Assembly: GCF_001026905.1 (NCBI RefSeq)
Contig: NZ_LAQL01000006.1
Span: 62,001-126,000 of the forward strand
Direction of reading: 5' to 3'
Length of the DNA stretch: 64,000 nt
Source: Kiloniella spongiae
GTDB taxonomy: Bacteria; Pseudomonadota; Alphaproteobacteria; Kiloniellales; Kiloniellaceae
The position numbers and the translations under genes were made by a program. The notes beneath the pieces are model-generated. The model was not told the origin of the DNA, made no database searches, and worked only from the letters and a program-made list of their open reading frames with translations. The stretch's first letter is position 1. Every line of letters begins with the position of its first letter. Shown here in pieces: positions 2,484-22,424 of this stretch.

Positions 2484-3602
2484 CTAAACACGCATCGGCA
2501 TCAGCACATAAAGCGCAGATGTATCAGCAGAATCTCTGACAATCGTCGGGGAAGCAGCATCAGCCATCAAAAACTCAGCAGAATCACCTTCAATTTGTTG
2601 GGCAATATCCAGAAGGTATCTGGAATTAAAGCCAATATCGAGGGACGTTCCTTCGTAATTCACTTCCAAAACTTCAACCGCGCTACCATTTTCAGCAGAT
2701 GTGGCAGACAGCGTCAGAGACGATCCGTCCAACGTAATTTTGACCGCACGGCTCTTTTCAGTGGAGATCGTGGAAACACGATCAACAGCGGCAGAGAAGG
2801 TCTTACAGTCAAGAACCAAACTCTTGTCATTACCACTTGGGATAACACGCTGGTAATCAGGGAATGTACCGTCGATCAACTTGGAACTTAGAACCGTTGA
2901 ATCAAAACGGAACATAATTTTTGTTTCAGAAAGAGAAACTTCGATCGGATCATTGGTTTCATCAATCAGCTTACGAAGCTCATTGACCGTTTTACGCGGC
3001 ACAATCACGCCCGGGAGATTTTCAGCACCCTGCGGCAATGGCATTTCAAACCGCGCAAGACGATGGCCATCTGTAGCAACCGCGCGCAAGACGGGGATAC
3101 CTTCGGCTTCCGTCGCATGAACATAAATGCCGTTCAAGTAATACCTGGTTTCTTCAGTTGAAATTGCAAAACGGGTTCTATCAATCAAGTTTTTGAGCTC
3201 ACCCGCCTGAATACCAAAAACCTGCGGCAGATCAGCAACGCCAGCAGCGGGAAAATCTTCGCGCGGCAATGTCTGAAGTGTAAAGGTAGAACGCCCAGCT
3301 TTAAGGGTCATTTGGGCCGTTTCGGCATTGGCAGTCAGTTCGACTTCGGAACCGTCAGGAAGTTTTCTGACGATATCATAAAATGTATGTGCAGGGGCTG
3401 TCGTCACACCCGCATCAACAATTGTAGCTTCAACCTGATCAACAATAGTCAGATCCATGTCAGTTGCTGTCAGGGATAACTTTCCGTCTTTGGCTTCCAT
3501 CAAAACATTGGAAAGAATTGGAATAGTATTCCTGCGTTCGACGACACTTTGAACATGTGCCAGGGATTTCAACAATGCAGAGCGTTCGATTGTCAACTTC
3601 AT
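2484..3602 (-). CDS. dnaN: DNA polymerase III sliding clamp (beta subunit)
   Basis: Ring-shaped processivity clamp of the replicative polymerase. I chose the ATG at 3600-3602 (MKLTIERSALL), giving 372 residues, the normal family length. The frame is open for 26 more codons upstream, but that part does not resemble the family N-terminus. Three clamp domains are expected; the end LMPMRV is the characteristic beta-clamp C-terminus. It lies between dnaA and recF in the same orientation, with 330 bp separating it from dnaA. Confidence 0.97.
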   Translation of the reverse strand: MKLTIERSALLKSLAHVQSVVERRNTIPILSNVLMEAKDGKLSLTATDMDLTIVDQVEATIVDAGVTTAPAHTFYDIVRKLPDGSEVELTANAETAQMTLKAGRSTFTLQTLPREDFPAAGVADLPQVFGIQAGELKNLIDRTRFAISTEETRYYLNGIYVHATEAEGIPVLRAVATDGHRLARFEMPLPQGAENLPGVIVPRKTVNELRKLIDETNDPIEVSLSETKIMFRFDSTVLSSKLIDGTFPDYQRVIPSGNDKSLVLDCKTFSAAVDRVSTISTEKSRAVKITLDGSSLTLSATSAENGSAVEVLEVNYEGTSLDIGFNSRYLLDIAQQIEGDSAEFLMADAASPTIVRDSADTSALYVLMPMRV

Positions 3603-3933
3603 GATGCTATGACTCAGTCCGTATCTTTCATCAGTACCATTAAAAACCCCCTCCTGTGCAACACCACAGAACAAGGTCACGATTACCCCCGTGCCTCACA
3701 ATTGAGAGTACTAGGACTTTCTAGGTGGGACTCGGGCGGAAAGTATAGCGGGTTAGTTCACAGAAGGAAAACAATTATAACATCTTATCTGCTTATGACG
3801 TGAATTTCCAAAATCTTGGAATCACATCAAAGAGATATCAGGAAAGAGGGACGAAAAATTCCTCATTCAACAGCACAACTCGACATATAAATGAGTCAGA
3901 AAAATGAGCCGGGCAAACTAGCCTAAGATCAAC
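3603..3933. other. dnaA-dnaN intergenic region
   Basis: 331 bp without a gene between the dnaA stop and the dnaN start. It presumably carries a dnaN promoter. By eye I found no 9-mer close to the DnaA box TTATNCACA, no clear hairpin terminator behind dnaA and no RNA gene. A reading frame on the plus strand (3549-3803) is an unsupported shadow. Confidence 0.5.
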
Positions 3934-5367
3934 CTAGTTTTCCAACATCCGGCTAAGAAGTTCTATATCCTCTGCAAACTCAAGGTCAGAGGACTTCAAT
4001 TCGTCGACTTTTTTCACGGCATGCATAACTGTCGTATGATCACGTCCACCAAACTTGCGGCCAATTTCGGGCAACGAGCGCGATGTTAGCTGTTTTGAAA
4101 GGTACATTGCAATTTGTCGCGGTCGAGCAACGGCTCTGGCACGACGGGCAGAGTGCATATCTGACACGCGAACGTTAAAATGCTCTGCAACTTTCTTTTG
4201 GATTTCTTCAATCGTCACTCGGCGATCATTCGCCCTTAGAAGGTCGTGCAACACTTCCTGCGTGGTTTCCAGAGTAACCGAGCGGCCAACAAGGGTCGCG
4301 TGAGCAACAATACGATTAAGCGCGCCTTCCAGCTCACGGATATTAGATGTTATTTTATGGGCAAGGAACTCGACAACCTTCTGCGGAATTTCAACATCTA
4401 GCTGTTCAGCTTTTGATTCGAGAATACCCAATCTAAGTTCGTACGTTGTTGGATGGATATCCGCAACCAAGCCCCAGCCAAGGCGAGACTTCATGCGCTC
4501 TTCAACGCCCTCCAAATCAGAAGGGCTTTTGTCTGCTGAAATGATAACCTGGCGATTTTGGTCAACCAGCGCATTAAAGGTATGGAAAAACTCTTCCTGT
4601 GTTGCCTCCCGTCCACCGATGAACTGAACGTCATCAATCATCAACACATCAACGGAACGAAACTGCTCCTTAAATGACATGGTATCTTTTGTTCGCAAAG
4701 CACGCACGAACTGATACATAAACTTTTCAGCTGAAAGGTAGATAACTTTCTTTTCGGGATGGGCTTTACGGATCTGATGTGCAATCGCGTGCATCAGATG
4801 TGTTTTACCAAGCCCAACACCTCCATATAGGAAAAGAGGATTAAAAGGCACCGCTTCTGCATCAGCTACGCGCTGAGCAGCCGCATAAGCAAGCTCGTTT
4901 GGCTTTCCAACCACAAAATTTTCAAAGGTAAATCGCGGATCCAAAGATCCTGTTATCTGTTGAACGTCCTGTTCTTGCGCTACGGTCTCTACTGGTAAGG
5001 GAGAAGCTCTTTTCACAACAGGCGCTTCTTTTTCCTGAGTGCGCACAACCTCAGGCTCATCTTTCACATCGACCAAAGCAGGTTTTGGTACCGGACGAGA
5101 CGGAGACAGAACAACAATCTCAACATCAGTAGGGGTACCGATCTCTTCAAGCCACAGAGCCTGAATCCGATCTTGGTAGTTACTGGCAACCCAATCACGC
5201 ATAAAACGTGTCGGCACAGCCATACGAATAAAGGATTCATCGCCAGACAACAATGACAACGGCTTCAGCCAGCTACGATAAGCAGCTTCGCCAACTTCGG
5301 TGCGCAGTCTTCCGAGCACACGGTCCCATTGTTGCTGAAAAGATAAAATCACCTCACTCTGAGCCAT
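3934..5367 (-). CDS. dnaA: Chromosomal replication initiator DnaA
   Basis: AAA+ initiator that binds DnaA boxes and opens the replication origin. 477 residues. Domain I (helicase/regulator contact) spans about 1-85 and a variable linker rich in Pro/Glu about 90-145. The AAA+ domain has Walker A GGVGLGKT at 182-189 and Walker B VLMIDDVQFI near 240. The C-terminal helix-turn-helix has the DnaA signature GGRDHTTVMHAVKK near 440. It heads the dnaA-dnaN-recF-gyrB block. The ATG at 5365-5367 fits the family start. Confidence 0.98.
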   Translation of the reverse strand: MAQSEVILSFQQQWDRVLGRLRTEVGEAAYRSWLKPLSLLSGDESFIRMAVPTRFMRDWVASNYQDRIQALWLEEIGTPTDVEIVVLSPSRPVPKPALVDVKDEPEVVRTQEKEAPVVKRASPLPVETVAQEQDVQQITGSLDPRFTFENFVVGKPNELAYAAAQRVADAEAVPFNPLFLYGGVGLGKTHLMHAIAHQIRKAHPEKKVIYLSAEKFMYQFVRALRTKDTMSFKEQFRSVDVLMIDDVQFIGGREATQEEFFHTFNALVDQNRQVIISADKSPSDLEGVEERMKSRLGWGLVADIHPTTYELRLGILESKAEQLDVEIPQKVVEFLAHKITSNIRELEGALNRIVAHATLVGRSVTLETTQEVLHDLLRANDRRVTIEEIQKKVAEHFNVRVSDMHSARRARAVARPRQIAMYLSKQLTSRSLPEIGRKFGGRDHTTVMHAVKKVDELKSSDLEFAEDIELLSRMLEN

Positions 5368-5873
5368 ATGCCTCCCCGCCTATACTTACAAACAAATAAA
5401 AATTATGCATTAACCGTCACGATCAAGTTCAAAAACATGTCTATTAAAATAAATCCAATAAACCTCGCGCAAGCACAAATAAAACCAATCCCAAAATCAG
5501 TAAAATTTTAGGTTTCACTTACACTCTTCAATATCAAGGACGGAATAACTTTAACTCGCAGAAATATTATGCAGAGCAAATCATACTATAATTATGAATT
5601 TCCCTTCCCGAGAGGATGTAATGTACTCGGCAATGGCATTTCATGCAACACGATCAGATCAAGAACATGATATTTTTCCGACAAAAATTCAGTCCTTGGG
5701 TATTGCCAAAAAGGTGACCCACTAAATCTAGTAGCCCCACCGATTCACCCAATAACGTTACAACTCGAATTTCCATGAATTTCAGAGAATCCAAGCGACT
5801 CCACATAAAAAAAAGTCGCACTCAAAAGAGCACGACTTTTTACCGACCCATCCTATGAAATGGGAAGGATAAC
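5368..5873. other. rpsT-dnaA intergenic region
   Basis: 506 bp, AT-rich, holding the dnaA promoter region and, at its high end, the rpsT terminator. No DnaA box (TTATNCACA or reverse) is visible, so this does not look like oriC. A possible 34-codon plus-strand reading frame (5621-5725, ATG start, AGAGG five bases upstream, TATAAT at 5587-5592) can be read. It has no recognisable product and no good -35, so I do not call it a gene. Confidence 0.5.
5806..5842 (-). terminator. Rho-independent terminator of rpsT
   Basis: Read on the minus strand, GTCGTGCTC, loop TTTT, GAGTGCGAC form a 9-bp stem (two positions are G-U wobbles), preceded by A's and followed by an unbroken run of eight T's. The wobbles pair only in the minus-strand RNA, which fixes the direction. 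It lies about 30 bp behind the rpsT stop. Confidence 0.85.
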
Positions 5874-6137
5874 TTAACCCAGAGCTTTAATGCGTCCGTT
5901 TAAACGGGACAGCTTACGAGCAACTGTGTTTTTGCGTAGAATACCGGCACGAACGCCACGGTGCATTTCAGGTTGAGCAGCTTTGAAAGCTTCCTGAGCA
6001 GCAGTTTTGTCGCCCTCGCCAATCGCAGCTTCAACACTCTTAACAAAAGTGCGAATGCGGCCGAGACGTGATGAGTTCAGTTCGTAACGGCGTTCGTTAC
6101 GACGGATCCGGGTTTTCGCAGAAAGATGATTAGCCAT
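5874..6137 (-). CDS. rpsT: 30S ribosomal protein S20
   Basis: Small primary 16S rRNA-binding protein of the 30S subunit. The 87-residue basic protein starts [17 protein letters not shown] and has the typical helical hairpin sequence with [14 protein letters not shown] and [14 protein letters not shown]. Monocistronic by layout: its own upstream gap of about 190 bp and its own terminator. The position between an enoyl-CoA hydratase gene and dnaA is a recurrent alphaproteobacterial arrangement. Confidence 0.98.
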
Positions 6138-6326
6138 CGATAGGCGCCTATTCTTCAGTAATAATGAATCTCGAAAGTTGCGGCGTTATAACGGTGCCTT
6201 GTGTGTTCGTCAAGCATGATGAGTCAGTTTTATGACCACACAACAAACGAATGCATCATTTAAACACCTTCATTCACCTATTGCCGACACCGCTCTCAAC
6301 AGCATAACCAATAGGAGAATAGCGCT

Positions 6327-6350
6327 AAACCAGTCTTATTTCTGGTTTTA
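6327..6350 (-). terminator. Weak hairpin behind the enoyl-CoA hydratase gene
   Basis: AAACCAG (6327-6333) and CTGGTTT (6342-6348) form a 7-bp stem immediately after the stop codon of the hydratase gene on the minus strand. Only three T's follow, so termination would be weak. Confidence 0.35.
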
Positions 6351-7127
6351 TCACCGATGCTTCCAGTCAGGCTTACGTTTTTCAACAAAAGCTGTCATTC
6401 CTTCCCGCCTGTCTTCCAAAGCAAAGGTTGAGTGGAAAACACGTCTTTCAAAACGGAGTCCCTCGGAAAGAGTGGTTTCATAAGCTCTATCAACGGATTC
6501 TTTAGCGATCATCGTTACAGGAAGAGAGAATCCCGCAATCTTCTTCGCTGCGGCCAACACCTCATCCATCAACTCAGCTGCGGGAACAACCCGGCTCACT
6601 AGGCCGCTTCGCTCTGCTTCTTCCGCATCCATCATCCGCCCGGTTAAACACATGTCCATTGCCTTTGCCTTGCCAATCAAATGGGTAAGGCGTTGCGTAC
6701 CACCCGCACCGGGAATCGTCCCAATGGTTATTTCTGGTTGCCCGAATTTTGCCGTATCTGCAGCGATGATAAAGTCACACATCATGGCAACTTCACAGCC
6801 ACCACCCAATGCATAACCTGCTACAGCCGCGATCACAGGCTTTCTTGTTTTGGCAAGAACCTCCCAATCATCGGTAATGAAATCTTCCCGATAAGCTGCT
6901 TGAAAGTCTTTCCCCACCATTTCCTTAATATCGGCACCGGCAGCAAAGGCCTTTTCAGATCCAGTCACAACCATACACCCGATTGTGTCATCAGCTTCAA
7001 ACTCTGAAACAGCCCGGCCAAGCTCATCGATTAGGCCGACGCAAAGCGCATTCAGAGCTTCAGGACGATCAAGCTTGATAAGACCAACACGGTCATGTCT
7101 TTCCACGGCGATATATTCATATGTCAT
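6351..7127 (-). CDS. Enoyl-CoA hydratase (crotonase family)
   Basis: Adds water to trans-2-enoyl-CoA in fatty-acid beta-oxidation. The 258-residue length and sequence are close to mitochondrial short-chain hydratases. The two catalytic glutamates are present as E112 in GGGCE and E132 in FGQPE, 20 residues apart as in the rat enzyme. The oxyanion-hole segment [11 protein letters not shown] (about 60-70) and [12 protein letters not shown] are also seen. An AGGAG sits about 11 bases before the ATG. It follows the small secreted-protein gene and mutM on the same strand and may be part of that transcript. fadB-type context is absent, so the exact substrate is unknown. Confidence 0.9.
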
Positions 7128-7224
7128 TTTAGGTCGGCTCCTGATTCAATCTTTGCTCTGAGTAATATCGTATACTCTTTATAATTTTTTTCTTCACAAA
7201 TTTCGGGGGAAGAGTGCCGTATGT

Positions 7225-7626
7225 TTATTGCGAGGGCGCGAGAATAATTCGCAGAATCGATCTGCTGTTTTCCACACCTTCCAGGATCTCTATCTTTAGA
7301 ACCTCGCCTTCGCGGATAAACAATCCTTCGCCAACGACGTCCCACCCCAATTGCGGTAATGTCCGCCCATAGAACTCTCTCACATCAACTTGTGACAGAT
7401 GGCCCGAGGCAAAGGCTTCGACAATGCGTCCTTCTGGCTTATCAAAAACAACCCCGAGCTCTTTCATTTCTTCCATACCGGGAACAATAGGCACACCACC
7501 GCTGCCCGTAAAAAAGCCCCCTTCGGATGCGAAAACGGAACTTGCTGCCATTAACGCACCACAAAAGAACAACAACCTTAAAGCTTTAGAAAAAATCAAA
7601 AATATTCGTACCATTAAATCAACCAT
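7225..7626 (-). CDS. Small exported protein of unknown function
   Basis: 133 residues with a signal peptide: a hydrophobic stretch over about residues 6-30 ending SVFA, then a mature domain of about 100 residues. The mature part (PGMEEMKELGVVFDKPEGRIVEA and FYGRTLPQLGWDVV) looks like a compact alpha/beta periplasmic domain; I cannot assign a family with certainty. It sits 13 bp behind mutM and before the hydratase, so it is probably cotranscribed with mutM. A second in-frame ATG at 7614 is an alternative start. Confidence 0.8.
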   Translation of the reverse strand: MVDLMVRIFLIFSKALRLLFFCGALMAASSVFASEGGFFTGSGGVPIVPGMEEMKELGVVFDKPEGRIVEAFASGHLSQVDVREFYGRTLPQLGWDVVGEGLFIREGEVLKIEILEGVENSRSILRIILAPSQ

Positions 7627-7639
7627 CTTTATTGCGATC

Positions 7640-8497
7640 TTAGCGCTGACAGGTCGGACAGTAGAAAGTCGAGCGCCCGTTCTGCTGAATACGTTCTATA
7701 AGGAATTGAGTGTCGTCTTTACCATCAAATTCACGAGCGCACCTTCGACAGGCCTCACCTTCACGTCCATAAACGGACCAAGAGTGTTGAAAATAACCCA
7801 ACTCTCCCGAAGCCTGCACATAGTCGCGCAAGCTGGACCCCCCGGCTTCAATCGCTTTGTTTAAAACATCACGAATGGTCACCACCAAAAAATCTGCCTC
7901 AGCCATTGTCAGGCTTTGCGCCTGTCTTTCCGGCGAAATTCCCGAGAGATGTAATGCTTCACAGGCATAGATATTCCCGATCCCCGCAACAACACGCTGA
8001 TCAAGTATCGTTGCTTTAATATTGGTTTTCTTGCTCTTGATCCTCGCAAAAAAATCCGGCCCGTTAAAAGTATTCCCCAAAGGCTCCGGCCCTAGATCCT
8101 TAAAAGCTTTGTGACTTTCCAGATCATTGACGTGAACAAGATCCATCATACCAAAACGACGGGGATCGCAATATCTGATCTCATCACCACTGTCTGTCTC
8201 AAAGATAATATGATCGTGCGTTCCCAACGGCGGCCGCTTATCGCCTTGCAGAATTGTTACGCGCCCAGACATACCCAAGTGGAAAAACAACACCATCTCA
8301 TCATCAAGATGCGCAAGAACGTATTTTGCCCGACGCTTTAACTGCTCGACTTTACGACCCGTTAACCTCGCCGCCATATTTTCTGGCAGAGGAAAGCGTA
8401 AATTATCTCTCCTTTGCGTGACTTTTTTGAGAATACTCCCTTCAAGACTAGGGCGTAAGCCGCGCATAACAGTCTCGACTTCGGGTAGTTCTGGCAT
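7640..8497 (-). CDS. mutM: Formamidopyrimidine-DNA glycosylase
   Basis: Bifunctional glycosylase/AP lyase that removes 8-oxoguanine and FapyG from DNA. The start is set at 8497 because the enzyme needs Pro as residue 1 after Met removal, and the sequence there reads MPELPEVETV; the frame is open for nine further codons. 285 residues. The C-terminal zinc finger is complete (CRRC ... CPTC), and the catalytic N-terminal Pro-Glu is present. Divergent from ubiE, with a 123-bp shared promoter gap. Confidence 0.96.
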   Translation of the reverse strand: MPELPEVETVMRGLRPSLEGSILKKVTQRRDNLRFPLPENMAARLTGRKVEQLKRRAKYVLAHLDDEMVLFFHLGMSGRVTILQGDKRPPLGTHDHIIFETDSGDEIRYCDPRRFGMMDLVHVNDLESHKAFKDLGPEPLGNTFNGPDFFARIKSKKTNIKATILDQRVVAGIGNIYACEALHLSGISPERQAQSLTMAEADFLVVTIRDVLNKAIEAGGSSLRDYVQASGELGYFQHSWSVYGREGEACRRCAREFDGKDDTQFLIERIQQNGRSTFYCPTCQR

Positions 8498-15131: not shown

Positions 15132-15620
15132 CTAGAGAAGCTTTTCAATCGGATAGCCGGAAAAATGCTTGGATGTGTTCAAAACGACGTGGCTACTAAT
15201 ATTCATCACCCCCGGCGTGTCAGTGGCGTCCAATAGATAATCGTTAATTTCATTGTATCGCCCCATATCGGGGGCTACGATCCGTAGGCAAAAGTCAAAA
15301 GATCCACTGACCATATAGCACTCGACCACTTCCGGGATTTTTTGCACATAGTCCTGAAACGCTTTGAATTGATCCCGGCTATGGTCCTTGAGGGTGACAG
15401 TCGCAATCACCATGACAGATCGGCAAACTCGTTCCAGATCAATCATCCCGAAATAGGGACCGATAAAGCCGCGCTCTTCCAATTTACGTACTCTGTTCAA
15501 GCAAGAACTTGGGGACAAGTTCACTCTATCCGACAAATCCTGATTGGTTATACGAGCTTCTTGCTGAAGAATCGAAAGAATCTTTTGATCTATTCGATCC
15601 AATTGCTGACTAAACGACAT
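15132..15620 (-). CDS. Lrp/AsnC family transcriptional regulator
   Basis: 162-residue feast/famine regulator. The N-terminal AsnC helix-turn-helix (QLDRIDQKILSILQQEARIT, then LSDRVNLSPSSCLNRVRKLE) is followed by a RAM ligand-binding domain from about residue 70. It is transcribed away from the arginine succinyltransferase operon across a 388-bp regulatory gap, so it is a natural candidate to control that operon in response to arginine or another amino acid (inference). Confidence 0.92.
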   Translation of the reverse strand: MSFSQQLDRIDQKILSILQQEARITNQDLSDRVNLSPSSCLNRVRKLEERGFIGPYFGMIDLERVCRSVMVIATVTLKDHSRDQFKAFQDYVQKIPEVVECYMVSGSFDFCLRIVAPDMGRYNEINDYLLDATDTPGVMNISSHVVLNTSKHFSGYPIEKLL

Positions 15621-16008: not shown

Positions 16009-17199
16009 ATGTCTAACGTTCTTCCTGGCCGCGAAGCCATGATGACCACCTATAACCCGCCAAACATCGCCTTTGAAAAAGGTGAAGGAACCTGGCTTTA
16101 CGCAGAAGATGGTACAAAATATCTCGACTTTTACAGTGGGATTGCAGTTTGCGCCTTTGGCCACGCGCACCCTCACCTGGTTGCTGCGCTAAAAGATCAG
16201 GCTGATAAGTTCTGGCACTGCTCAAACATGTTCCGAGTTACACAATCCGAAACCTTGGCAAAACGCCTGACAGATAACTCTTTTGCATCAAAGGTTTTCT
16301 TTAGCAACTCAGGCGCGGAAGCCAATGAGTGTGGCCTGAAAATCCTACGAAAATATCAAGAGGCCAAAGGTCATCCGGAACGTAAGCGTATTATTGGTAT
16401 GTCCAGCGCCTTCCACGGTCGTACACTCGGCACGATTGCTGCGGCAGGAAACCCTGCGCATACAGCTGGCTTCCTGATGGAAGATGAAGGTTACGATCAG
16501 GTTCCTTTTGGTGATCTGCAAGCGCTGGAAGCCGCAATCACTGACAAAACAGCTGGCGTCATCTTTGAACCTGTTCAGGGCGAAGGCGGTATTCGCCCGG
16601 GTACAGCCGAATACCTTCAAGGCATTCGCGCGCTTTGTGACAAGCACGACATTCTGATGATGGTTGACGAAGTTCAGTGTGGCATGGGCCGTACAGGCAA
16701 ACTTTTTGCCTATGAATGGTCAGGAATTGAACCTGATGTTATGTCCCTTGCCAAAGGTATTGGCGGTGGCTTCCCGCTTGGCGCCTGTCTCGCAAATGAC
16801 AAAGCGGCAGAAGCAATGATCTTCGGCACACACGGCAGCACCTATGGTGGCAACCCTCTTGCTGGTGCAGTCGGGAATGCTGTTATGGACCTATTGATGG
16901 AAGATGGCTTCCTCGCATCCGTTACAGAGAAGTCAAACAAAGTGCGCGCCCAGCTTGAAGAACTCATCGCAAAACATCCGAAAGCTCTGGTTTCCGTTCA
17001 CGGTCTTGGCCTGATGATCGGTCTCAAATGTGCAATTCCAAATGGCGATGTACTGCTTGAGCTTAGAAACGAAGGTATGCTCTGCGCAAAATCTGGCGAC
17101 AATCAGATCCGCTTCCTCCCTCCGCTCAACGTAACGAATGACGAGTTGGATACAGCGATCGAAATTCTTGATCGTGTTTGTACAAAACTGACAGCCTAA
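16009..17199 (+). CDS. astC: Succinylornithine/acetylornithine transaminase
   Basis: Class III PLP aminotransferase, 396 residues. In the AST pathway it converts N2-succinylornithine plus 2-oxoglutarate to N-succinylglutamate semialdehyde plus glutamate; the ArgD reaction of arginine synthesis is its near twin. PLP lysine is K249 in SLAKGIGGG. Also FFSNSGAEANE, SAFHGRTLGT and MMVDEVQCGMGRTG. An AAAGGAG ribosome site precedes the ATG. First gene of a tight five-gene operon with astA, astD and astB, so I favour AstC; dual ArgD use is possible. Confidence 0.88.
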   Translation: MSNVLPGREAMMTTYNPPNIAFEKGEGTWLYAEDGTKYLDFYSGIAVCAFGHAHPHLVAALKDQADKFWHCSNMFRVTQSETLAKRLTDNSFASKVFFSNSGAEANECGLKILRKYQEAKGHPERKRIIGMSSAFHGRTLGTIAAAGNPAHTAGFLMEDEGYDQVPFGDLQALEAAITDKTAGVIFEPVQGEGGIRPGTAEYLQGIRALCDKHDILMMVDEVQCGMGRTGKLFAYEWSGIEPDVMSLAKGIGGGFPLGACLANDKAAEAMIFGTHGSTYGGNPLAGAVGNAVMDLLMEDGFLASVTEKSNKVRAQLEELIAKHPKALVSVHGLGLMIGLKCAIPNGDVLLELRNEGMLCAKSGDNQIRFLPPLNVTNDELDTAIEILDRVCTKLTA

Positions 17200-17212: not shown

Positions 17213-18442
17213 ATGACTTATGTTCCTTTGCTCGAATGGATCGATGCGCAACAGGACAATATGCTTTCTGAAGTTTTGGCGCTAAGTGAGATCAATTCTG
17301 GAAGCGCGAATATTCCGGGAATTGAAAAGGTCATCGACCGACTTTCCGATTTTGCATCCTCATTAGGTGCAGAAGAAGAACGCCTTGAGTTGCCATCACG
17401 CACAGATGTTCTCGATAATGGTGAGGTTGTCGAGAGCGAAAGCGGTCCTCTGCTTCGCCTGACAAAATGGCCAAACGCCAATCGCCGCATTCTTCTGGTT
17501 GGTCACAGTGATACAGTCTATCCCAAAGACCATAGCTTTCAGCACTGCACCAAGCTTGATGAAAACACCATCAATGGTCCCGGCGTTGCTGACATGAAGG
17601 GCGGAATTGTTGTTATGCTCACGGCCTTACAGGCTCTTGAGCGCAGCCCCTATGCAGGCAATATCGGCTGGCAGGTTATTATTAATCCTGATGAAGAGAT
17701 CGGTTCTTTTGCATCGGCAGAACATCTGGATCAAGCCGCCAGAGCCGCCGATGTCGGCATGATCTTTGAACCGGCACTGGCCGATGGCACATTGGCTGGC
17801 GCACGAAAAGGCAGCGGAAACTTTACCCTGATTGCCCGTGGTCGTGCAGCCCATGCCGGGCGAGAACATCACCTCGGCAGGAATGCGATCGCAGCCCTCG
17901 CCCGGGCAATCTCACTGCTGGATGGCCTAAACGGACAGATGGATGGTGTAACCATCAACGTTGCCAAGCTAACAGGCGGTGGCCCGAATAATGTGGTTCC
18001 CGACTTTGTGCTGTGTCGTTTTAACATTCGTGTCCCAAGCCCGGAAGGGCAAGCGTGGGCAGAAAAGCAACTACAACAAATCATAAGTGATATCAGCCAA
18101 GCCGATGGCATTTCACTTGAACTCCATGGTTCCTTTGGACGACAGCCAAAAGTCATGGACAAGGCCCACCAGCAACTCTTTTCCCTGCTAAAAAGCTGCG
18201 GAGATGATCTGGGCCTTTCAACAGAGGCAAAAGCGACAGGCGGGTGTTGCGATGGAAATAACCTCGCCGCTGCCGGTCTTGCAAATATAGATACCCTCGG
18301 TGTTCGTGGCGGCGCAATTCACAGTACAGATGAATTTCTGCTGATCGACAGCCTGAGTGAACGCGCCAAACTTTCTGCTCTCCTGCTCTTTAAACTGGCA
18401 GCGGGCGAAGCAACTTGGCCCGACCGTACAACCACAGCCTAA
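17213..18442 (+). CDS. M20-family metallohydrolase, probable succinylglutamate desuccinylase substitute
   Basis: 409 residues of the M20 (ArgE/DapE/carboxypeptidase G2) family. All expected di-zinc ligands and catalytic residues are visible: H98 in GHSDT, D127 in ADMKGG, catalytic E161 and ligand E162 in DEEIGS, E186, and H370 in GAIHST. A dimerisation lid domain occupies about 195-310. It lies 13 bp after astC and before astA, inside the AST operon, and no M14-type AstE gene is present. Carboxypeptidase G2 relatives split N-acyl-glutamates, the same bond as in N-succinylglutamate, so it probably performs the fifth AST step (inference). Confidence 0.85.
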   Translation: MTYVPLLEWIDAQQDNMLSEVLALSEINSGSANIPGIEKVIDRLSDFASSLGAEEERLELPSRTDVLDNGEVVESESGPLLRLTKWPNANRRILLVGHSDTVYPKDHSFQHCTKLDENTINGPGVADMKGGIVVMLTALQALERSPYAGNIGWQVIINPDEEIGSFASAEHLDQAARAADVGMIFEPALADGTLAGARKGSGNFTLIARGRAAHAGREHHLGRNAIAALARAISLLDGLNGQMDGVTINVAKLTGGGPNNVVPDFVLCRFNIRVPSPEGQAWAEKQLQQIISDISQADGISLELHGSFGRQPKVMDKAHQQLFSLLKSCGDDLGLSTEAKATGGCCDGNNLAAAGLANIDTLGVRGGAIHSTDEFLLIDSLSERAKLSALLLFKLAAGEATWPDRTTTA

Positions 18443-18473: not shown

Positions 18474-19517
18474 ATGTTAATTATCAGACCAGCTCGACAA
18501 AGTGATCTCGGCGATCTTATGGATTTGTCCCACGCTGTGGGAACAGGCATGACATCCATGCCAGCCAACGAAGGCGCCTGGCTTGAAAAGCTCACCCGTT
18601 CCGAGGCAAGCTTCAAGGCCCCGGCAATGGGACCTCAGGGTGAAATCTATTTTATGGTTCTTGAAGACACCAAAACTCAAAAAGCCGTTGGTACGACCGC
18701 TCTCTATGCCGGAGTCGGGTTAAAACATCCTTTTTATTCTTACAAAATATCAACGCTCGTCAACGCCTCATCCGAGTTGGAAACAACCCGCAAGATGAAG
18801 GTTATGCTATTGGTTAACGATTACACAGGCGCAACCGAAATCGGGTCGCTTTATCTTTCCAAAGAATACCGTCAGCCCGGTATCGGTCAGTTCCTTTCCA
18901 GATGTCGCTATCTCACCTTGGCAGACTTCCCCGATCGTTTTGGCGATATGGTGATGGCCGAAATGCGCGGCTGGCAGGACAAAGACGGTTCGTCCCCCTT
19001 CTGGAATCATCTCGGCGGTAAGTTCTTTGGCATAGCCTTTGAAAATGCAGACAAGATTTCTTCGGTCAAGGGAACTCAGATCATTTCAGATTTGATGCCC
19101 AAGTACCCAATCTATATCGACCTGTTACCGGACGAAGCTCAGGAAGTTATCGGCAAGCCTCATGAATCGTCCAGTCCGGCTTTGCGTTTGCTGGAAAAAG
19201 AAGGCTTTAACTTCAACGGTTATGTCGATGTTTTTGACGGCGGTCCATCTGTAGAGGTGCCAACCAGAAACATCAAAACGCTGCAATCAAGTCGAGTTGC
19301 CACCGTTAACGGTACAAAAGAACAGCCTGTAGCAGAAGATCAATCAAATCTCTTTATGATCAGTAATGCAAATATTGATGCCTATCGCATGTGTCTTCAA
19401 CCCGCAGAGTTGGACGACACGCAATCCATCAAACTTACACAAGAAACCATCGACGCGCTCCGCCTGAAAGAGGGCGACGAAGTACGTTACGTAAAATTCC
19501 GGGAGAAAAAGTCATGA
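18474..19517 (+). CDS. astA: Arginine N-succinyltransferase
   Basis: First enzyme of the AST pathway: transfers succinyl from succinyl-CoA to the alpha-amino group of arginine. I chose the ATG at 18474 ([12 protein letters not shown]), preceded by GGGGA, giving 347 residues (family about 340-345); the open frame extends 39 codons further upstream into the preceding gene. Acyltransferase fold with [37 protein letters not shown] and [12 protein letters not shown], all characteristic of AstA. It overlaps astD by the four bases ATGA. Confidence 0.95.
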
Positions 19518-21001
19518 GCCTAGCACAGAAACTTTACATCAATGGCGAGTGGCGCGATGGCAAGGGGAGTGTCCTTTCCTCTACCAACCCTGCAAACAAC
19601 GAAGTCATCTGGCAAGCGGCCTCAGCAACAGCAGAGGATGTAAACGATGCCATTATCGCGGCACATTCTGCGCTGCGTGGATGGGCGCTTGCCTCATTAG
19701 ACAGTCGCATTGAAATCATCACAAAATACCGGGATCTCCTCAAAGAGCGTCAGGAAGATATCGCTGTTGCAATCGCAATGGAAACTGGCAAACCGCTTTG
19801 GGAAACCAAAACCGAAGCCGCCGCAATGATTGGCAAAGTTGCCCTCTCTCTCGACGCCTTTGAAAAGCGTACTGGCGACCATGAGAATCAAATGGGCGAA
19901 GGTCTGAAAGCAACTCTGCGTCACAAACCTCATGGCGTTGTCGCCGTATTCGGCCCCTATAATTTTCCAGGCCACCTTCCAAACGGTCACATCGTCCCGT
20001 CTTTGATTGCCGGGAATACCATCGTCTTCAAACCCAGTGACCTGACCCCGATGGTTGCCGAGGTTATGATGCAGGCATGGCATGATGCCGGATTACCTGC
20101 TGGTGTTCTCAATCTGGTGCAAGGTGCCAAGGAAACGGGTATCGCTCTTGCCGGACACGACGGCATTGATGGCCTGTTCTTTACTGGTAGCTCTGCAACA
20201 GGTGAACTCCTACACCGCCAATATGCAGGTAAGACAGGTAAAATTCTGGCTCTGGAAATGGGCGGAAACAATCCGCTGGTTGTTCTGGAAGCAAGCGATC
20301 ACAAAGCGGCTGCGTATCACACTATACAGTCGGCCTATGTCACCTCGGGGCAACGTTGCACCTGTTCTCGCAGGTTGATCGTCCCAACGGGGACAGAAGG
20401 CGACCAGTTTATCGAAACACTGTCTTCACAAATCGATGGCATCAAAGTCGGACAGGATGATCAGGAAAATCCGCCCTTTATGGGATCTTTGATTTCCAAC
20501 GCCGCAGCAGACGGCATTCTGGCCGCACAGGAAAATCTTGAGAAATTGGGTGGTAAAGTTATCAAGCGCCTGGAACGACTTTATGACGGCAAGCCATTTT
20601 TAACGCCCGGTCTTATCGATGTAACGTCCATTAAAGATCTTCCCGACGAAGAATACTTTGGGCCCCTCCTTCAGATCATCCGCGTTGCTGATTTTGACGA
20701 AGCCATTGCTGTCGCTAACAACACCCGCTTTGGCCTTTCGGCTGGTATTTTAACCGACAACAAAGACCTTTGGGAAAAATTCTGGGTCGAAAGTCGTGCC
20801 GGTATCGTCAACTGGAACCGTCCACTGACAGGCGCTAGCGGATCAGCACCTTTTGGGGGTGTCGGCGCCAGTGGCAATCATCGCCCAAGTGCTTTCTATG
20901 CCGCAGATTATGCCGCCTATCCTGTTGCTTCTCTCGAGGCCGATACGCTTAACGTGCCTGCGCAGCTAACACCCGGCATCACCCTAAAAGATCAAGGATA
21001 A
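19514..21001 (+). CDS. astD: Succinylglutamate-semialdehyde dehydrogenase
   Basis: NAD-dependent aldehyde dehydrogenase that oxidises N-succinylglutamate semialdehyde to N-succinylglutamate (AST step 4). Start ATG at 19514, overlapping the astA stop as ATGA; 495 residues. Catalytic C282 in SGQRCTC, general base E248 in LEMGG, K173 in VFKPSD, and the AstD-typical [15 protein letters not shown]. The coupling with astA implies tight co-translation. Confidence 0.95.
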
Positions 21002-21005
21002 GCCG

Positions 21006-22355
21006 ATGACTTATTACGAGGTTAACTTTGACGGCCTTGTGGGCCCGACACATAACTTTGCGGGCCTTTCCTATGGCAACATAGCATCCGATAAGTCAGC
21101 CAAAGGAACTTCAAGTCCCAAAGGTGCTGCCTTGCAAGGGTTGGAGAAAATGAAGGCCTTGGCAGATATGGGCATGAAGCAGGGTGTTTTACCGCCGCAG
21201 GAACGCCCTCATCTGCCAACGCTTCGCGGCTTGGGTTACAGAGGCAACGAAAGCGATATCCTCACGAAAGCGGCAGAGGAAAACCCGGCTCTCTTTGCAG
21301 GCACCTGTTCTGCCTCTTCAATGTGGGTTGCAAATGCAGGTACGGTATCGCCACGCCCGGATACAAAGGACGGCAGAACACACTTCACCCCTGCAAATCT
21401 GATCTCGATGTTTCATCGTTCCATCGAGCACCCGACAACCGGGCGTACATTGCAGACCATCTTTGCCGATGAAAGCCGCTTTGCCCATCATCCTGCCCTG
21501 CACGGTAGCCATCACTTTGGGGACGAAGGCGCTGCAAACCATACTCGCTTTTGTGACAACTATGGTGATCCCGGTGTCGAGTTCTTTGTCTATGGTGTTG
21601 AAGCCCTACGTAAAGGCGCACCCGGTCCAAAAAAATTCCCGGCCCGGCAAACATTGGAAGCCTGTCAGGCTGTTGCCCGTCTCCACGGCCTATCCGAAGA
21701 CCGGGTCGTCTATGCACAGCAAAATCCCGATGTGATTGATCAAGGTGTGTTCCATAACGATGTTATTTCGGTTGGCAATGGACGTGTTCTGTTCCACCAC
21801 GAGAAAGCTTTCCTCAATACCGATACTGTGAAAGAAGAGCTCAACAGAAAACTGCCAAACGGCGATATGATTTTTGTCGAGGTACCCGATAATCAGGTCT
21901 CTGTTGAAGATGCTGTGCAAAGTTACCTCTTCAACAGCCAGCTAATTTTACCTTCAGGCAGTGGCAGTAACGCCATGACACTGATCGCGCCTATTGAGTG
22001 TCAGGAAAATCCACGGGTAAAAAAATATCTGGAGGATCTTGTTCAACAAGACGGTGCCATCAGCAATGTCGAATTCTTCAACCTTCGCCAGTCCATGAAA
22101 AATGGTGGCGGTCCTGCATGCCTTAGATTGCGTGTTGTCCTCAGTGATGATGATTTAAGCAATCTGGGCGCACGTGTCCTGCTTGATGACGCACTTTACG
22201 AAGATCTAAAGGCATGGGTTTCCAGACACTATCGAGATGAACTTTCACCCGATGATATCAAAGACCCTGCGCTTCTACATGAAGTGCGTACAGCACTTGA
22301 AGAATTGACCGACATTTTAAATCTCGGAAAACTTTACGATTTCCAGCGGGCTTAA
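21006..22355 (+). CDS. astB: N-succinylarginine dihydrolase
   Basis: AST step 2: hydrolyses N2-succinylarginine to succinylornithine, two ammonia and CO2. 449 residues of the amidinotransferase-like pentein fold, with the family-defining start [19 protein letters not shown], then [12 protein letters not shown] with active-site His, [12 protein letters not shown] and [11 protein letters not shown] carrying the nucleophilic Cys near the C-terminus. AAGGA lies just before the ATG and only four bases separate it from astD. Last gene of the operon; a strong terminator follows. Confidence 0.96.
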
Positions 22356-22387: not shown

Positions 22388-22424
22388 ATCCCGAGTGATC
22401 ACCGTATCACTCGGGATCTTTTTT
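22388..22424 (+). terminator. Rho-independent terminator of the AST operon
   Basis: Perfect 12-bp stem ATCCCGAGTGAT (22388-22399) and ATCACTCGGGAT (22406-22417) with a 6-base loop, followed by CTTTTTT. It lies 33 bp behind the astB stop. On the minus strand no T-run follows, so it does not serve the convergent cfa gene. Confidence 0.93.

Follow-up and report, generated by a model that had tools for sequence, protein, structure and literature searches.

An M20-family zinc hydrolase as the probable non-orthologous replacement of AstE in the arginine succinyltransferase operon of Kiloniella spongiae

A zinc hydrolase of the M20 family that is encoded within the arginine succinyltransferase (AST) operon of Kiloniella spongiae is very probably the N-succinylglutamate desuccinylase of this bacterium, in non-orthologous replacement of AstE, the textbook enzyme for the succinylglutamate desuccinylase step with which the AST pathway ends. 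The initial annotation of this DNA had already proposed such a replacement, which is now supported by genome surveys, by the linkage of the gene to the operon and by carboxypeptidase G2 (CPG2) as the nearest solved structure, all pointing to succinylglutamate as the likely substrate. The best explanation of the combined results is that the replacement has become fixed in most of the AST-bearing Alphaproteobacteria sampled, as well as in many Oceanospirillales.

The M20 gene is an intact open reading frame of 409 amino acids at positions 17213-18442 (+ strand) of the window, namely the whole stretch of 64,000 nucleotides that was analyzed. It lies inside the AST operon as originally claimed, 13 bp from a gene for a class III aminotransferase of the ArgD/AstC type (16009..17199, +) and 31 bp from astA, which encodes arginine N-succinyltransferase, possibly acting also on ornithine (approximately 18474..19517, +; Pfam AstA, 413 bits). 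Then follow astD for succinylglutamate-semialdehyde dehydrogenase (approximately 19514..21001, +; TIGR03240, 766 bits with a cut-off of 579), overlapping astA by about 4 bp, and, after a gap of 4 bp, astB for N-succinylarginine dihydrolase (21006..22355, +; TIGR03241, 685 bits with a cut-off of 538). AstA, AstB and AstD are thus all encoded in one operon according to Pfam and NCBIfam matches, AstA passing the subfamily model TIGR03243 (388 bits) and missing the equivalog model TIGR03244 (370 vs. 391 bits). The five genes lie on a single strand with tight spacing, and a consensus scan found no convincing terminator between them; the same scan located an intrinsic-terminator-like hairpin with a 12-bp stem and a T tract after astB (22388..22417, +), where a strong terminator had been noted before.

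The gene order astC-M20-astA-astD-astB given in the initial annotation stands, with a caveat on the name astC: the aminotransferase scores 387 bits with the AstC model TIGR03246, below its cut-off of 610, and has its best score with the ArgD-type model PRK01278 (570 bits, above cut-off). Its product would be the N2-succinylornithine transaminase of the pathway. In view of this ArgD-type score, a single aminotransferase may serve both the synthesis and the breakdown of arginine. Divergent from the operon is the gene of a regulator of the Lrp/AsnC family (15132..15620, -), which contains the Pfam domains HTH_24 and AsnC_trans_reg and reaches 122 bits with the Lrp model PRK11169, below its cut-off of 233; judging from its position, this regulator is possibly responsive to arginine.

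The M20 protein is a full member of family NF005602/PRK07338 (546.9 bits over residues 4-400, cut-off 357), which in NCBIfam (June 2026) is named only "hydrolase", without an assigned substrate. Its closest named loci belong to Kiloniella majae, K. litopenaei and K. laminariae, with 80-98% identity. Both PF01546 (Peptidase_M20) and PF07687 (M20_dimer) are matched above cut-off, corresponding to the catalytic and the dimerisation domain. As stated previously, the protein has its full set of zinc ligands (H98, D127, E162, E186 and H370) and, in addition, the catalytic E161; ligands and catalytic glutamate are invariant in an alignment of 101 AST-linked relatives with 14 outgroup M20 rows, and the zinc ligands likewise in a narrower alignment of 40 relatives. 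The AST-linked M20 proteins fall on one side of a single branch with a support of 100/100, several of the outgroup rows being long. Four residues, R217, K313, C346 and N350, never vary among the 101 AST-linked proteins and do not occur at the corresponding columns of the 14 outgroup rows, while R310, G348, N349 and I369 show little or no variation within the AST-linked set and are rare outside it. On the basis of the alignment, these clade-specific residues are candidates for recognizing both ends of succinylglutamate.

The AlphaFold model of the M20 protein (pLDDT 94.3) has CPG2 (1CG2) as its nearest solved structure in the fold search, with Z scores of 44.7-44.9; lower in the same search appear, among others, DapE enzymes complexed with succinate, with Z values around 36. 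Comparison with the models of characterized M20 enzymes indicates that the protein is related to, and not a member of, the glutamate carboxypeptidase/CPG2 family PRK06133 (192.7 bits, below the cut-off of 349), and it scores far under the cut-offs of the ArgE model TIGR01892 (57 bits vs. 297.7) and of the DapE model PRK13009 (86.7 bits vs. 284). The ArgE score bears on the reading that the M20 enzyme is a deacetylase of N-acetylornithine or N-acetylglutamate lying beside an argD-type gene, in a cluster that would be partly biosynthetic. The first gene of the operon does score best as an acetylornithine transaminase, but the other genes of the operon are catabolic and two proteins above the ArgE cut-off are encoded elsewhere in the genome. 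With two separate ArgE-type deacetylases, the M20 gene is not needed as the ArgE of this organism, a role that we thus rejected, and we regard the deacetylase reading as highly implausible.

The proposed function as succinylglutamate desuccinylase presupposes that AstE is missing, and indeed no AstE gene was found in the operon, in agreement with the initial annotation. The wider search for astE that it called for, conducted over the entire genome (76 contigs, completeness rated 99.5%), returned no matches to TIGR03242 (E <= 0.001) and none to PF04952. A single remote protein of the AstE/AspA fold was retrieved with PF24827 (58.7 bits), namely L001 on contig C66, which has 390 amino acids and an intact gene (1024-2196, -), an apparent zinc motif and a C-terminal tail resembling biotinyl/lipoyl domains. 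One could therefore argue that the true desuccinylase is another gene such as this M14-like deacylase, leaving the M20 enzyme as an accessory amidohydrolase of peptides or folate that feeds in arginine or glutamate, all the more as CPG2 itself cleaves folates. But L001 is not recognized by the AstE model, its similarity to DoeB, an ectoine deacetylase, amounts to a trace, and it has no close named family; its gene adjoins that of a ClC-type channel (identified by eye from the sequence) rather than ast genes. Judged by its sequence, L001 is not AstE, even if it could in principle have a minor role as a deacylase, and we consider the accessory reading very unlikely.

We then considered the distribution of the M20 enzyme and AstE in three sets of genomes, comprising 387 genomes of the class Alphaproteobacteria, 397 of Pseudomonadota and 176 of one order of Gammaproteobacteria, the last being sampled to reduce the confounding of alpha- with gammaproteobacterial ancestry. 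AstA was found in 17 of the 387 genomes of the class, 14 of which have NF005602 above cut-off and none of which has AstE above cut-off. Among the 397 genomes of Pseudomonadota (NF005602 above cut-off; AstE at E <= 1e-20), AstB is present in 120, NF005602 in 42 and AstE in 89, and the AstB-positive genomes divide into 41 with the M20 enzyme only, 76 with AstE only, 3 with neither and none with both; conversely, 41 of the 42 M20-positive genomes possess AstB. The gammaproteobacterial order has M20 in 25 genomes across 11 families and AstE in 44 genomes across 9 families, the families being disjoint and none of the 69 carriers having both; since genomes are not independent and the split between M20 and AstE follows families, Fisher p-values overstate the significance of such counts. 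The mutual exclusivity of the two genes, which the initial annotation had asked to be surveyed, is therefore complete in both samples, and an accessory role of the M20 enzyme would leave it unexplained. Caulobacter, included among the control genomes, also carries AstA together with an M20 protein of the NF005602 family. The association of M20 with AST is the norm in several families of alpha- and gammaproteobacteria, and goes beyond a local replacement. AstD is retained in 12 of the 13 AstA-positive genomes tested, so that formation of succinylglutamate is to be expected in them. Four genomes positive for AstA or AstB (G094, G099, G258 and G711) have neither enzyme above cut-off, which suggests either that a third desuccinylase exists or that their pathway is partial; inspection of the neighbourhoods in the first three (L038, L039 and L040) revealed no obvious third desuccinylase.

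Gene neighbourhoods show the same association. In the 397 genomes of Pseudomonadota, 38 of 43 M20 genes lie less than 8 kb from astB; of the remaining five, those of G664, G586, G666 and G385 adjoin astA or astD and that of G300 is apart from ast genes. Of the 80 nearest relatives from named genomes (Kiloniella, Neptunomonas, Marinobacterium, Oceanospirillum, Amphritea, Endozoicomonas, Motiliproteus and others), most display the order aminotransferase-M20-astA(-astA)-astD-astB, and no AstE was found at these 80 loci, while the Escherichia coli control locus does show it. A probable parallel to the tandem astA copies seen in some relatives is the arginine/ornithine succinyltransferase of Pseudomonas, which has two subunits. 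Across 68 loci, the divergence of M20 tracks that of AstD (Mantel r 0.93) and of AstB (r 0.89), as expected for genes that are inherited together. (Of note, the ast-adjoining M20 gene of Parendozoicomonas haliclonae [L103, 8001-9203] has an in-frame stop inside the matched stretch, possibly due to decay or to a sequencing error, and genome G541 [L162, G541:C5; also G541:C1 and G541:C7] has two M20 copies near astB and matches AstB three times, one of the matches containing an internal stop, in duplicated AST clusters of differing gene order).

In some Alphaproteobacteria the cluster consists of M20, astA and astB alone, an arrangement that could suggest an earlier point of action, with the M20 enzyme removing the succinyl group from N2-succinylornithine (or succinylarginine) to yield ornithine and so short-circuiting the pathway; ArgE- and DapE-type M20 enzymes do act on N-acyl diamino acids. 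AstD is encoded elsewhere in those same genomes, however, and succinylornithine as the substrate deduced from the astD-less clusters was rejected for this reason. The opposite situation is found in G664, which lacks AstB and yet maintains an M20-astA-astD cluster (L156, G664:C10:112000-127000, 2810-8093), with a ureohydrolase of the agmatinase family and an Lrp-like regulator encoded close by. The presence of M20 beside astA and astD without AstB is what one would expect for a step downstream of AstD, and the cluster suggests a variant that begins with the cleavage of arginine to ornithine and continues with succinylation of ornithine by AstA. Early desuccinylation would moreover leave the product of AstD without an enzyme to remove it, AstE being absent, and it fits poorly with the ArgE and DapE model scores reported above; we thus deem it improbable.

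The preferred reading, by which the M20 enzyme desuccinylates succinylglutamate, would complete the pathway as follows. AstA would load succinyl-CoA onto arginine, AstB would convert the product to succinylornithine, the AstC/ArgD-type aminotransferase would form succinylglutamate semialdehyde and AstD would oxidize this to N2-succinylglutamate, which the M20 enzyme would finally hydrolyze to succinate and L-glutamate, in place of the M14-like AstE. The protein is predicted to be a cytosolic, dimeric hydrolase with two zinc ions, bound by the five ligands listed above, and E161 would act as the general base on the water bridging these metals according to the standard M20 mechanism, with H214 and dimerisation-domain residues probably completing the pocket. 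A broader proposal is that PRK07338 constitutes a second class of succinylglutamate desuccinylase, unrelated to AstE and mutually exclusive with it, and fixed in the lineages named at the outset, that also serves the AstB-free variant (ureohydrolase, AstA and AstD, with AstA working on ornithine), while a third desuccinylase may act where both enzymes are absent; to this wider scheme, taken as a whole, we give somewhat less than even credence.

We found no report in the open-access literature of an M20 or other alternative succinylglutamate desuccinylase, of PRK07338 or of AST in Alphaproteobacteria, and the AstE gap is not treated in the passages found in the GapMind carbon-source paper (PMC9007349); earlier recognition in subscription papers, supplements or web databases such as fitness browsers is possible. 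The novelty would lie in another enzyme family performing the final reaction of a known pathway. The assignment would close this reaction of arginine degradation in a large set of bacteria, including Caulobacter, whose genomes would appear in automatic annotation to lack a gene for it, and would attach a substrate to a curated family that bears no more than a generic name. It appears that many marine and freshwater bacteria carry out this reaction with a zinc enzyme of a non-textbook family, adding a clean example of an M20 zinc hydrolase in non-orthologous replacement of an M14-like one.

With AstE/AruE (TIGR03242, M14-like) the M20 enzyme would share its reaction and its position in the pathway, and it shares the operon partners AstA, AstB, AstD and the aminotransferase; the two differ in fold and belong to unrelated families, the AstE model missing the M20 gene altogether. 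CPG2 hydrolyzes N-acyl-glutamates with release of glutamate and DapE removes succinyl groups, so that the activity proposed here joins two known abilities of M20 enzymes. The protein resembles CPG2 in its fold, its two-domain layout and all its zinc ligands, with glutamate as the expected leaving amine, but the identity is about 24% and the residues R217, K313, C346 and GNN 348-350 of the AST-linked proteins are not found in CPG2; the acyl group would be succinyl rather than the pteroyl or peptide moiety handled by CPG2. DapE, in turn, has a related fold and the di-zinc desuccinylase chemistry of M20 enzymes, but acts on a substrate in which the amine is diaminopimelate; its dimerisation domain is required and may contribute to placing a histidine and arginines in the active site (PMC4012986).
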